A DNA stretch of 64,000 nucleotides from Jiangella endophytica (GTDB lineage: Bacteria > Actinomycetota > Actinomycetes > Jiangellales > Jiangellaceae): contig NZ_QVAI01000019.1 in the NCBI RefSeq assembly GCF_003427025.1, positions 64,151 through 128,150 of the forward strand, given 5' to 3'. The notes below the pieces were generated by a model. That model had not been told where the DNA came from. It searched no databases and saw only the letters and a list, made by a program, of their open reading frames with translations. Shown one piece after another: positions 40,230 through 59,000 of the stretch (within the stretch, counting starts at the first letter, position 1; each line of letters starts with the position of its first letter). The translations under genes were made by a program, and so were the position numbers.

Positions 40230-40643
40230 ATGAACGCGATGACCGTGACCCCGAAGCTCGTCGTCGACGGGGCCGACCGTGCCCTCGACTTCTACCGCCG
40301 CGCGCTCGGCGCCGAGCCCGGCGTCCGGTACGCCGGGCCCGGCGGCAAGGTGGTCTACGCCGAGTTCCGGCTCGGCGCCGGCCTGCTGTCGATCAAGGAC
40401 GCCGACGCGCACGATCCGGCCGCCGGCGCCCTGTTCACGCTCGAGGTCGCCGACCCGGACGCCCTCGGAGCCGCCCTGGAGCGGGCCGGGGCGACCGTCG
40501 TCTTCCCGATCGACGACCAGCCGTACGGTATGCGCCAGGGCCGGCTCCGCGACCCGTTCGGCATCCAGTGGATCGTCTCGCGACCGGCCGAGGACCTCAG
40601 CGCCGACGAGGTGCAGCGACGGCTGGACGCGCATCCGGGCTGA
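40230..40643 (+). CDS. VOC (glyoxalase/PhnB-like) family protein
   Basis: A 137-residue protein with two beta-alpha-beta-beta-beta modules (LVVDGADRALDFYRRALGAE, VVYAEFRLGAGLLSIKDADA, LFTLEVADPDALGAALERAG, MRQGRLRDPFGIQWIVS). The pattern is that of PhnB-like glyoxalase/bleomycin-resistance proteins; the function of these single-domain members is mostly unknown. The ATG at 40230 is used, with a second ATG at 40239. The last 47 bp overlap the 3' end of the convergent PhzE/TrpEG gene. Confidence 0.85.
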   Translation: MNAMTVTPKLVVDGADRALDFYRRALGAEPGVRYAGPGGKVVYAEFRLGAGLLSIKDADAHDPAAGALFTLEVADPDALGAALERAGATVVFPIDDQPYGMRQGRLRDPFGIQWIVSRPAEDLSADEVQRRLDAHPG

Positions 40644-42546
40644 GCACGCCCGTCACCAGCTCCGCCAGCAGGTCGATCCCCTCGGTGGACAGGATCGACT
40701 CCAGATGGAACTGCACCGACGCGAACCCGGCGCCGCGCAGCGCGAACACCTCACCGGTCTCCGGCTGCGCCGCGGCCTCGACGCCGGGCGGCAGGACGGC
40801 GCCGTCGGCCAGCCGGGCCGCGTAGGTGTTGTAGAACCCGACCCGGGTCTCGCGGCCGAACAACGGCACCGGCCGCTGCGTGCCCTGGTACGGCTGCGGC
40901 AGTAGCCCGAGCGGCAGCCCGACCAGCCCGGCCAGCACCTGGTGACTCAGGCAGACGGCGAGCAGGGGGCGCTGCGCGGCCAGCCGAGCCCGGACGACGT
41001 CGTGCAGCCGGGCGATGCGCGGGTCGGCGACGTCGCGCGGGTCGCCGGGGCCGGGGCCGGCCAGCAGCAGGTCGTACGCGTCGCCGGTCGCCGGGCCGAC
41101 CTCGGACCAACGCCGGACCTCCGCCCGCATCCCGAGCCGGCGCAGCAGATGCGCCAGCATCGCCGTCCACCGGTCCTCGGCGTCGACGATCAGCACCGAC
41201 CGCCCGGCCAGCGCGGGCCGCTCGTCCTGGCCCTGCGGCCGCAGCCAGAACGGCGCCAGCGTGCGGTTGCGCACGGTCAGCGCGGCAGCGACCTCGGGAT
41301 GGTCCGCGAAGGACGGGCGGTCGTCCGTGAGCGTGGGACGGTTGTCCGCGAGCGCGGGACGGTCGTCCGTGAGCGCGGGGCGGTCGTCCGCGAACGACGC
41401 TACGGCCGCCTCGCGCACCCCGAGCGCCGTCAGCACCCCGGCCGCCTTCGCGTGCGTCTCGGCGACTTCGTGGCCGGCGACCGAGTGCCGCACGAGGGTC
41501 GCGCCGACCGGTACCCGCACCGTCCCGTCGGGCTCCAGGTAGGCGGTGCGGATGAGGATCGGCGCGTCGACGCTGAGCCGGTCGCCGGTGCCCTCGATCA
41601 GCGCTGCCACGCCCGCGTAGTACCCCCGCCCACCCACCTCATAGCGGGTGATCACCCGAGCCGCGTTCTCCAGCGGCGACCCCGTCACCGTCGGGGCGAA
41701 CATCGTCTCGCGCAGCACGTCGCGCACGTCCATCCGCGTCGTGCCCTCGAGCAGGTACTCGGTGTGGATGAGGTGGCTCATCTCGTTGAGGTAGGGCCCG
41801 AGCACGCGTCCGCCGTCCTCGCACACGGCGCTCATCATCTTCAGCTCCTCGTCGACCACCATGAACAGTTCCTCGGTCTCCTTCGGGTCGGCGAGGAACC
41901 GCAGCAGGTCGTCGGTGGTCGTGCCGCCGGCCGGAACCCGGTACGTGCCGCTGATCGGGTTCATCACGACGGTGCCGTCGTCGACGCTGACGTGCCGCTC
42001 GGGCGTCGCGCCGACCATCGTCACGTCGCCGGCGTGCACGACGAACGTCCAGTACGCGCCCGGTTCGCCGGTGAGCAGCCGGCCGAACAGCCGCAGCGCC
42101 GCCTGGGGCACCGATCCGGTGAGCCGGGCCAGGTAGTCGCGCCGGATGACGAAGTTGGCGCCGGCGCCGCGGCCGATCTCGTCGCGGATGACCCGGCCGA
42201 CGATGTCCGCGTACTCGTCGTCGGCGACGTCGAACCCGCCGGGCGCGACGTCGACGTCGCCGCCCACCGCGGCCAGGACCTCCGAACGGTCCAACGCGAC
42301 CCGCGACCGCACCCGCAGGCAGCGCAACGGCGCGCCGTCGTCGTGGCACTCGAAGCCGCGCTCGGACAGCTGTCGGTACGGGATCAGCGCCAGCGTCGCC
42401 GGGCTGGCGTCGTCGGGCAGCGGGATCTCCGCGAGCCGGTCGACGTCGACGAGGTCACCGAGCAGCAGTTCGACGCCGGGCCGGCCGGAGCGGGCGAGCA
42501 GCGCGAACGGCGGGGGCGCGGGATCGTCGAGCAGGTCGTCGAGCAT
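40597..42546 (-). CDS. Fused anthranilate synthase (PhzE/TrpEG type)
   Basis: A 649-residue fusion of a chorismate-binding synthase (about 1-380) and a glutamine amidotransferase (about 440-640). The synthase has NPISGTYRVPAGG and VVDEELKMMSAVCEDGGRV, then GPYLNEMSHLIHTEYLLEG. These are closer to PhzE than to classical TrpE. The glutaminase triad is visible (CLSHQ, FHLES). The linker holds four 7-residue repeats (TDDRPAL type, about 383-411). AAGGAA lies 6 nt before the ATG. A trp leader and attenuator sit 57 nt upstream, so it probably makes anthranilate for tryptophan, although PhzE relatives make the phenazine precursor ADIC. Confidence 0.9.
   Translation of the reverse strand: MLDDLLDDPAPPPFALLARSGRPGVELLLGDLVDVDRLAEIPLPDDASPATLALIPYRQLSERGFECHDDGAPLRCLRVRSRVALDRSEVLAAVGGDVDVAPGGFDVADDEYADIVGRVIRDEIGRGAGANFVIRRDYLARLTGSVPQAALRLFGRLLTGEPGAYWTFVVHAGDVTMVGATPERHVSVDDGTVVMNPISGTYRVPAGGTTTDDLLRFLADPKETEELFMVVDEELKMMSAVCEDGGRVLGPYLNEMSHLIHTEYLLEGTTRMDVRDVLRETMFAPTVTGSPLENAARVITRYEVGGRGYYAGVAALIEGTGDRLSVDAPILIRTAYLEPDGTVRVPVGATLVRHSVAGHEVAETHAKAAGVLTALGVREAAVASFADDRPALTDDRPALADNRPTLTDDRPSFADHPEVAAALTVRNRTLAPFWLRPQGQDERPALAGRSVLIVDAEDRWTAMLAHLLRRLGMRAEVRRWSEVGPATGDAYDLLLAGPGPGDPRDVADPRIARLHDVVRARLAAQRPLLAVCLSHQVLAGLVGLPLGLLPQPYQGTQRPVPLFGRETRVGFYNTYAARLADGAVLPPGVEAAAQPETGEVFALRGAGFASVQFHLESILSTEGIDLLAELVTGVLSPDARPAVAAPRRR
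41312..41395 (-). repeat. 21-bp tandem repeats in the TrpEG linker
   Basis: Four in-frame copies of a 21-bp unit encode ADDRPAL-, TDDRPAL-, ADNRPTL- and TDDRPSF-like heptads joining the synthase and glutaminase domains. The copies differ by a few bases. Confidence 0.75.
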
Positions 42547-42602
42547 GGACGTTCCTTCCGGTCGAGCCTCGACCGGGGCGGGACGGTGCCGGACACGACA
42601 AC

Positions 42603-42668
42603 GACCGCCTCGGTGAGGCGGTCGCTTGCGTGGGGTACGCGAAGGGAATGGGCCGCCTAGGAGGCGGG
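42603..42668 (-). terminator. trp attenuator: three mutually exclusive hairpins
   Basis: In the message, region 1 CCGCCU and region 2 AGGCGG form a 6-bp hairpin around the leader stop codon. Region 2 can pair instead with CCGCCU in region 3. Region 3 GACCGCCUC and region 4 GAGGCGGUC form a perfect 9-bp terminator stem with an ACC loop (42603-42623). This is the classical 1:2, 2:3, 3:4 arrangement of tryptophan attenuators. The T-run after the terminator is weak. An attenuator-controlled anthranilate synthase gene is known from Streptomyces venezuelae. Confidence 0.85.
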
Positions 42669-42698
42669 CCACCACATGCCGAGCACGGTCGCGTACAT
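42657..42698 (-). CDS. trp leader peptide
   Basis: Thirteen codons, MYATVLGMWWPAS, with two adjacent Trp codons five positions before the stop, which lies inside the first hairpin. TAAGGT ends 8 nt before the ATG, so the message is nearly leaderless and no ribosome site is present. Stalling at the Trp codons would cover region 1 and allow the 2:3 antiterminator to form. Confidence 0.88.
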   Translation of the reverse strand: MYATVLGMWWPAS

Positions 42699-42714
42699 GC
42701 CGCAGACCTTAGCA

Positions 42715-43728
42715 TCACGACGTCGGGGGCGGCGGCTGTTCCGGCACCGGCCGGACGCCGTTCGCCTCCGCCGCCGGCGGGACGCGCTCCGCCGCCGGCG
42801 GGACGGCCTCCGCCGCCGGCGGGACGGGCTCCGCCGCCGGCGGGACGGGCTCCGCCGCTGGCGGGATGGCCTCAGCCGCGGGTGGGGCCGCCCCCGCCGC
42901 GGGCGGGACAGCCGGCGGGGTGGCCGGCGGGGCGGCCGGCGGGGTGGCCGGCCGGGCGGCGGCCGGTGGCTGTTCGGTCGCATGCTCCAGGAAGCGCAGC
43001 AGCTCGACCGGGAACGGCAGCACGACCGTCGAGTTCTTCTCCGCGGCGACCTCGACGATGGTCTGCAACAGTCGAAGCTGCAGCGCCGCCGGGGTCTCCG
43101 CCATGGTGGAGGCGGCCGAGGCGAGCTTGTGCGACGCCTGGAGTTCACCGTCGGCGGTGATGACCCGCGACCGCCGCTCCCGCTCCGCCTCGGCCTGTCG
43201 TGACATCGAGCGCTTCATCGCCTCAGGCAGCGCGACGTCCTTGATCTCGACCCGGTCGATCTCGATGCCCCAGCCGACGGCCGGGCTGTCGATCATCAGC
43301 TCGAGGCCCTGGTTCAGAGCCTCGCGGTTGGACAGCAGATCGTCCAGCTCGCTCTTGCCGATGATCGAGCGCAGTGACGTCTGCGCCACCTGCGACACGG
43401 CGAACTCGTAGTCCTGCACCTCGACGACGGCCTCGACGGGGTCGTGCACCCGGAAGTAGACGACGGCGTCGACGCGCACCGTGACGTTGTCGCGGGTGAT
43501 GCCGTCCTGCGCCGGGATCGGCAGCGTGATGATCTGCACGTTGACCTTGCGCATCTGGTCGACGAACGGAGCGATCCACGCGAATCCGGGCCCGCGCGGC
43601 GACCCGTGCACCTTGCCGAACCGGAACACGACGCCACGCTCGAACTGACGGACGACGCGGGCGCTCGCGCCGTACCAGACGAGGCCGAGGATCACCACAA
43701 CGGTGAGGATCGCGAATAGCGCACCCAT
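42715..43728 (-). CDS. SPFH/Band 7 family membrane protein (slipin-like) with repeat tail
   Basis: A 337-residue protein. One N-terminal membrane helix (FAILTVVVILGLVWYGASA) is followed by an SPFH domain (about 25-200: VVRQFERGVVFRFGKVHGSP, PIPAQDGITRDNVTVRVDAV, LRSIIGKSELDDLLSNREAL). A helical region (RQAEAERERRSRVITADGEL) and a 75-residue tail of repeated VPPAAE-type units close the protein. Slipins scaffold membrane microdomains; often an NfeD protein is the partner, but none is encoded here. GAGGAGGTC precedes the ATG. The trp leader promoter must overlap its 3' end. Confidence 0.9.
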   Translation of the reverse strand: MGALFAILTVVVILGLVWYGASARVVRQFERGVVFRFGKVHGSPRGPGFAWIAPFVDQMRKVNVQIITLPIPAQDGITRDNVTVRVDAVVYFRVHDPVEAVVEVQDYEFAVSQVAQTSLRSIIGKSELDDLLSNREALNQGLELMIDSPAVGWGIEIDRVEIKDVALPEAMKRSMSRQAEAERERRSRVITADGELQASHKLASAASTMAETPAALQLRLLQTIVEVAAEKNSTVVLPFPVELLRFLEHATEQPPAAARPATPPAAPPATPPAVPPAAGAAPPAAEAIPPAAEPVPPAAEPVPPAAEAVPPAAERVPPAAEANGVRPVPEQPPPPTS

Positions 43729-58782: not shown

Positions 58783-58871
58783 CCCGGACGAGTCTATTTC
58801 CCGTCTCCTGGGTGACTCGCGGCCGTGGGGGACCTCGCGGCCGGCGTCCGTTAGAGTCGGGGACGTACCGA

Positions 58872-58948
58872 TCGGCCGGGGTGCCCCGCGTGGGCTGAGA
58901 ACACACCCGCCGAACCTGATCCGGGTCATGCCGGCGCAGGGAGACCGA
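58872..58948 (+). ncRNA. TPP (THI-box) riboswitch
   Basis: The conserved blocks are all present in order: GGGGTGCCC, GGCTGAGA, ACACCCG, GAACCTGATCCGGGTCATGCC and GGCGCAGGGA. These form the thiamine diphosphate aptamer. It lies in the leader of thiD-tenA. A -10-like TAGAGT (58852-58857) suggests transcription starts just before it. Confidence 0.95.
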
Positions 58949-58952
58949 CGGT

Positions 58953-59000
58953 GATACCGGCAGCGCCGGTGTCGTCCGCTCCCTTCCCGGTGGGAGGAGC
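58953..59000 (+). promoter_or_regulatory. Riboswitch expression platform with ribosome-site sequestering hairpin
   Basis: GATACCGGC and GCCGGTGTC (58953-58973) form one hairpin. GCTCCCTTCCC (58978-58988) can pair with GGGAGGAGC (58992-59000), burying the GGGAGGAG ribosome site of thiD. With no U-run, control of translation rather than transcription termination is more likely. Confidence 0.65.

Follow-up and report, generated by a model that had tools for sequence, protein, structure and literature searches.

A ribosome-mediated transcription attenuator very probably controls a fused anthranilate synthase gene in Jiangella endophytica. The window, the 64,000-nucleotide stretch of DNA that was analysed, carries on its minus strand a mini-ORF encoding MYATVLGMWWPAS* and three competing hairpins, 110 nt 5' of the gene for a 649-aa fused anthranilate synthase. 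The original prediction described a 13-residue leader with two adjacent Trp codons and three mutually exclusive hairpins, and the ORF, the fold, and a Markov test confirm this description. The stretch that it assigned to the element, 42603-42698, does hold the attenuator, but its low coordinate falls just inside the terminator, of which the stem ends at 42602 and the tail at about 42594. The anatomy was accurate as far as it went; it omitted a -10 box 7 nt before the ATG and an outer helix formed by the 5' end of the leader.

The leader ORF occupies 42698-42657 (minus strand, as for all elements of the attenuator), with its two adjacent Trp codons at 42674-42669. Region 1 (CCGCCU, 42667-42662) pairs with region 2 (AGGCGG, 42658-42653), which overlaps the UAG stop of the leader and can pair instead with region 3 (CGACCGCCUC, 42624-42615). 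Region 3 is both the 3' arm of the antiterminator and the 5' arm of the terminator, and region 4 (GAGGCGGUCG, 42611-42602), followed by UUGUCGUGU, is the 3' side of the latter. The pairings 1:2, 2:3, and 3:4 are mutually exclusive, with region 1 placed by the Trp codons and region 2 by the stop codon. The terminator stem has 10 bp (42624-42602) and a 3:4 energy of -19.6 kcal/mol; region 4 and the U-containing tail UUGUCGUG together span 42594-42611. The stem is strong and conserved, whereas the U tract is weak in the window, although clear in Microbacterium relatives, and a terminator consensus scan at the leader found none. A search of Rfam returned no family matching the leader; a radC match (E 0.03) is well under the cut-off and was dismissed as chance.

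Folding of the leader RNA, a check proposed in the original prediction, gave the expected structure. The 153-nt leader folds at -78.0 kcal/mol, compared to -60.4 +/- 4.0 kcal/mol for shuffled sequences (z -4.4), and its best fold contains both 1:2 and 3:4. When region 1 is masked, regions 2-3 fold at -15.4 kcal/mol, and when region 2 is masked, the terminator region folds at -27.1 kcal/mol; these calculated energies agree with classical attenuation. The window contains a single WW mini-ORF that is followed by a quadruple of 6-mers allowing 1:2, 2:3, and 3:4, whereas 60 order-2 Markov copies of the window contain none.

The stop codon of the SPFH/Band 7 gene that precedes the leader is immediately followed by an extended -10 box (TGC-TAAGGT, 42706-42714, minus strand), which ends 7 nt before the leader ATG. 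A sigma-70 consensus scan found no promoter here, and there is no canonical -35 element. In each of 62 leaders, from 61 loci plus the window, a TAnnnT box ends 6-8 nt 5' of the start codon. This spacing would place the transcription start at or beside the leader start codon, and the leader mRNA is therefore probably leaderless, as is S. lividans trpL1 according to RNA-seq (PMC8079986). Tandem repeats with units of 21, 12, and 24 bp (42740-42960, minus strand) lie right before the leader promoter and make the C-terminus of the SPFH/Band 7 protein rich in proline and alanine. Among the loci searched, only the two Jiangella loci have the Band 7 neighbour in common with the window.

The controlled gene (40597-42546, minus strand) encodes a fused chorismate-binding and class I glutamine amidotransferase protein (TrpEG, PhzE-like). 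The 649-aa enzyme matches PF00425 and PF00117, with no match to PF04715, the classical TrpE N-terminal domain. The motifs NPISGTYR (residue 196) and CLSHQ (residue 532) are present in place of classical TrpE motifs, as had been noticed from the sequence, and CLSHQ and QFHLES are the catalytic Cys and His-Glu motifs of a class I amidotransferase. The N-terminus reads FALLARSG, without the LLES Trp-site motif. By analogy with its relative in S. venezuelae, the enzyme would make anthranilate. The downstream gene is convergent, so the trpEG unit is monocistronic. Between the synthase and amidotransferase domains, a tandem 21-bp repeat (41302-41399, minus strand) encodes a DDRPALT-like repeated linker. 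Elsewhere in the window, a TPP riboswitch (RF00059, 66.9 bits, above the gathering score) is found at 58867-58960 on the plus strand.

The genome of J. endophytica encodes four chorismate-binding enzymes. A search for a second trpE, also proposed at the outset, found one of these to be a classical TrpE with PF04715 and the sequence FLLESAE, which includes the LLES Trp-site motif. The gene precedes trpC, and a PALP enzyme is encoded further downstream. An attenuator in front of this classical trpE was considered and rejected, because the preceding gene reaches right up to its start and no match to the RNA model described below occurs there; the window element is the only match in the genome. 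The genome holds two anthranilate synthases, and a Trp leader was detected only for the fused one. The two are split within one genome: the classical TrpE keeps LLES and has no detected leader, whereas the fused enzyme lacks LLES and has an attenuator. PF00697 (TrpF) is absent from the genome, which is expected if PriA, an enzyme that can perform the TrpF step, does so here. The trp cluster (L086, contig C23) is seemingly interrupted, as trpE, a small ORF, and trpC are followed by a GMC oxidoreductase and another gene on the other strand, and then by the PALP enzyme, probably trpB.

Conservation of the leader was studied at 80 homologous loci, which were picked by similarity to the fused enzyme and are hence not a sample of all PhzE-like enzymes. 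A leader was found at 62 of them, within 300 nt at 61 and further upstream at one (L032); two loci are cut by contig ends and 16 have no leader. The leader is conserved and not a product of chance. Leaders with WW or WWW and a terminator precede orthologues in Jiangella, Microbacterium, Blastococcus, Rhodococcus, Kutzneria, Embleya, and Streptomyces, and the leader peptides of Jiangellaceae follow the pattern MYAxxxGxWWxAx. An RNA model built from 24 leaders matches in 19 of the 22 Jiangellaceae genomes; a classical TrpE is encoded in 20 of the 22. In a phylum-wide sample of 100 genomes the model found few matches, and several of those with E values of 1e-5 to 1e-3 look like chance. Two matches fall in one Streptomyces-like genome (L108, G044), one before TrpEG and one before trpS. 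The second Trp leader of this genome, MTTRTCTQLWWAA, lies before the trpS-like gene at about 1493 on the minus strand; here too, pairing between the 5' end of the leader and the spacer seems possible. At another locus (L109, about 1485 on the minus strand), a MLLITPAAQGWWPH mini-ORF precedes a strong terminator that has a long U tract, and no TrpEG homologue was found in that genome at the cut-off used.

From these features we infer the following mechanism. Transcription would start at or beside the leader AUG, and a ribosome would load on the 5' end of the predicted leaderless mRNA. When Trp-tRNA is scarce, the ribosome would stall at the two UGG codons and cover region 1; region 2 would then be free to form the 2:3 antiterminator, and RNA polymerase would continue into the gene for the fused anthranilate synthase. 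With ample Trp, the ribosome would reach UAG and cover region 2, allowing the 3:4 terminator to form. With no ribosome on the leader, the outer helix would close the 1:2 structure. It would probably keep further ribosomes off the 5' start codon, limit repeated initiation, and favour termination. The original proposal that a stand-alone enzyme is tied to Trp supply is supported by the comparative evidence and by Streptomyces precedents, as far as the available parts of that literature go.

The enzyme could instead be a genuine ADIC synthase (PhzE) that serves secondary metabolism and is expressed in line with Trp supply only by coincidence. Among solved structures, its best relative is 3r74 (E 4e-162), which we take to be a PhzE, NPISGTYR and CLSHQ speak for the same kinship, and none of the NCBIfam TrpE equivalogs reaches its cut-off. 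However, in a tree of 46 representative homologues, leader-bearing and leader-lacking members are split by a single change with a branch support of 98/95, and the fused enzyme groups with the attenuated homologues. P. aeruginosa PhzE and the homologues linked to phzC/phzD fall in the single clade formed by the leader-lacking members; a phzD homologue adjoins 13 of the 16 leader-lacking loci, most of which also have phzC, and phzD is absent beside every leader-bearing locus examined. The phylogeny proposed to compare the enzyme with PhzE thus sets it apart from the phenazine clade, and the label "PhzE-type" used in the original prediction holds as a description of sequence resemblance and no further. 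As that prediction also stated, no phenazine gene is near, at least among the neighbours scanned, which are part of the genes of the window. In addition, a Trp attenuator makes little sense for ADIC, and the S. venezuelae homologue is reported, in the parts of the literature seen, not to be an ADIC synthase. This reading is very unlikely. In the set examined, presence of the Trp leader distinguishes tryptophan-type from phenazine-type PhzE-like enzymes, a useful guide for annotation given how readily such genes are called phzE. It is likewise very unlikely that the leader of the tryptophan-type enzyme mainly controls translation (or reinitiation) of trpEG rather than transcription termination. 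The weak U tract of the window would fit such control, as would the fact that some actinobacterial leaders have no clear terminators; however, no part of the element is better conserved than the terminator stem, most relatives show a clear U tract, and the GGAAGGA ribosome site and trpEG start are located approximately 40-50 nt beyond the terminator, outside the conserved helices.

The outer helix joins the 5' end of the leader, approximately its first 10 nt with the start codon among them, to the spacer that precedes the terminator. Its 5' arm (GUACGCGA, 42689-42696) runs from the G of the start codon onward and its 3' arm (UCGCGUAC, 42635-42642) lies between the stop codon and the terminator; both were identified from folds, covariation, and a partner-swap test. 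A model-fitted alignment of 72 leaders (70 distinct), in which the fitting leans towards the model, has 98% of cells paired in the terminator, 81% in the outer helix, and 82% in 1:2. The antiterminator is paired in 92% of cells and hardly varies, which explains why it yields little covariation. Double changes occur in seven of seven outer-helix pairs, a count that relatedness inflates somewhat. Because the fitted alignment leans towards the model, an alignment-free test was added, in which the duplex energy of each leader 5' end with its own spacer was compared to that with the spacers of other species. Own partners reached -11.15 kcal/mol and swapped partners -9.13 +/- 0.30 kcal/mol, and none of 5000 swaps was as good.

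The helix could also be a by-product of a conserved leader peptide and a GC-rich spacer, without selection for pairing. These GC-rich segments already pair with an upstream segment at a background of -8.5 kcal/mol, and 20-32 of about 70 rows lack a pair at 4-78, 5-77, and 10-72. Against this explanation stand the compensatory changes, which give UACGCGA/UCGCGUA in Jiangella, GAUCGCG/CGCGAUC in Embleya, and UUCACGAA/UUCGUGAA in M. nanhaiense, as well as the case of M. ihumii (L010), in which a codon is deleted and the helix is kept in a shifted register as CGAAC/GUUCG. The swap test was also run within Microbacterium alone and outside Microbacterium, and in neither of these two separate groups did any of 5000 swaps match the own partners. 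A by-product is unlikely on balance. A selected function is a more tentative matter: the helix might be a conserved 5'-terminal clamp of actinobacterial trp leaders, such that a ribosome must load before the spacer is transcribed, about one regulatory ribosome acts per transcript, and termination is the default, a proposal that we rate slightly below an even chance. With the G of the start codon among its bases, the helix is expected to form only while the 5' end is free of ribosomes. In E. coli, translation of trpL is limited in a comparable way, as its ribosome-binding region pairs with distal leader RNA. The outer helix suggests, in testable form, how ribosome loading could be limited on a leaderless attenuator. 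It is possibly new, although it may already have been drawn in the figures of the 2005 survey by Seliverstov et al., of which part was available.

Several known systems resemble the window element. Citations in PMC1262725, PMC4833913, and PMC3111181 refer to experimental work on the trp attenuator of the S. venezuelae anthranilate synthase gene trpE(G) (Lin, Paradkar and Vining 1998) and describe the fused TrpEG of this species as an anthranilate rather than an ADIC synthase despite its similarity to PhzE (Ashenafi et al. 2008). On that evidence, both systems place a fused PhzE-like anthranilate synthase under a trp attenuator; the window differs in belonging to Jiangellaceae and in having two Trp codons in the leader and a terminator sequence of its own. 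In S. lividans, RNA-seq revealed a leader before a monocistronic trpE (trpL1/trpE, SLIV_27122/27120; PMC8079986), which shares with the window a leaderless Trp leader and a Rho-independent terminator (both predicted here). The S. lividans leader has 18 aa with WWW (MFAHSTRNWWWTAHPAAH), compared to MYATVLGMWWPAS in the window; the Streptomyces leaders of this analysis (L068, L078, and L116) closely resemble the trpL1 peptide. Classical trp attenuators were predicted in Corynebacterium and Streptomyces by Seliverstov et al. 2005 (PMC1262725), and, in the part of the survey seen, these have the double or triple UGG, the mutually exclusive antiterminator and terminator, and the GGCC-type complementary triples of the window; the survey did not cover Jiangella, and the text of that part does not describe an outer 5' helix. 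PhzE (PDB 3r74; the P. aeruginosa PA7 homologue is L075) shares the fused architecture and is the closest solved structure, but it belongs to a different clade, has no leader, and is encoded in phz clusters. The attenuator of the window and its arrangement with TrpEG are already known from Streptomyces and are ordinary apart from the outer helix; the Streptomyces-type attenuated TrpEG is now also placed in Jiangellaceae and in many Microbacterium.
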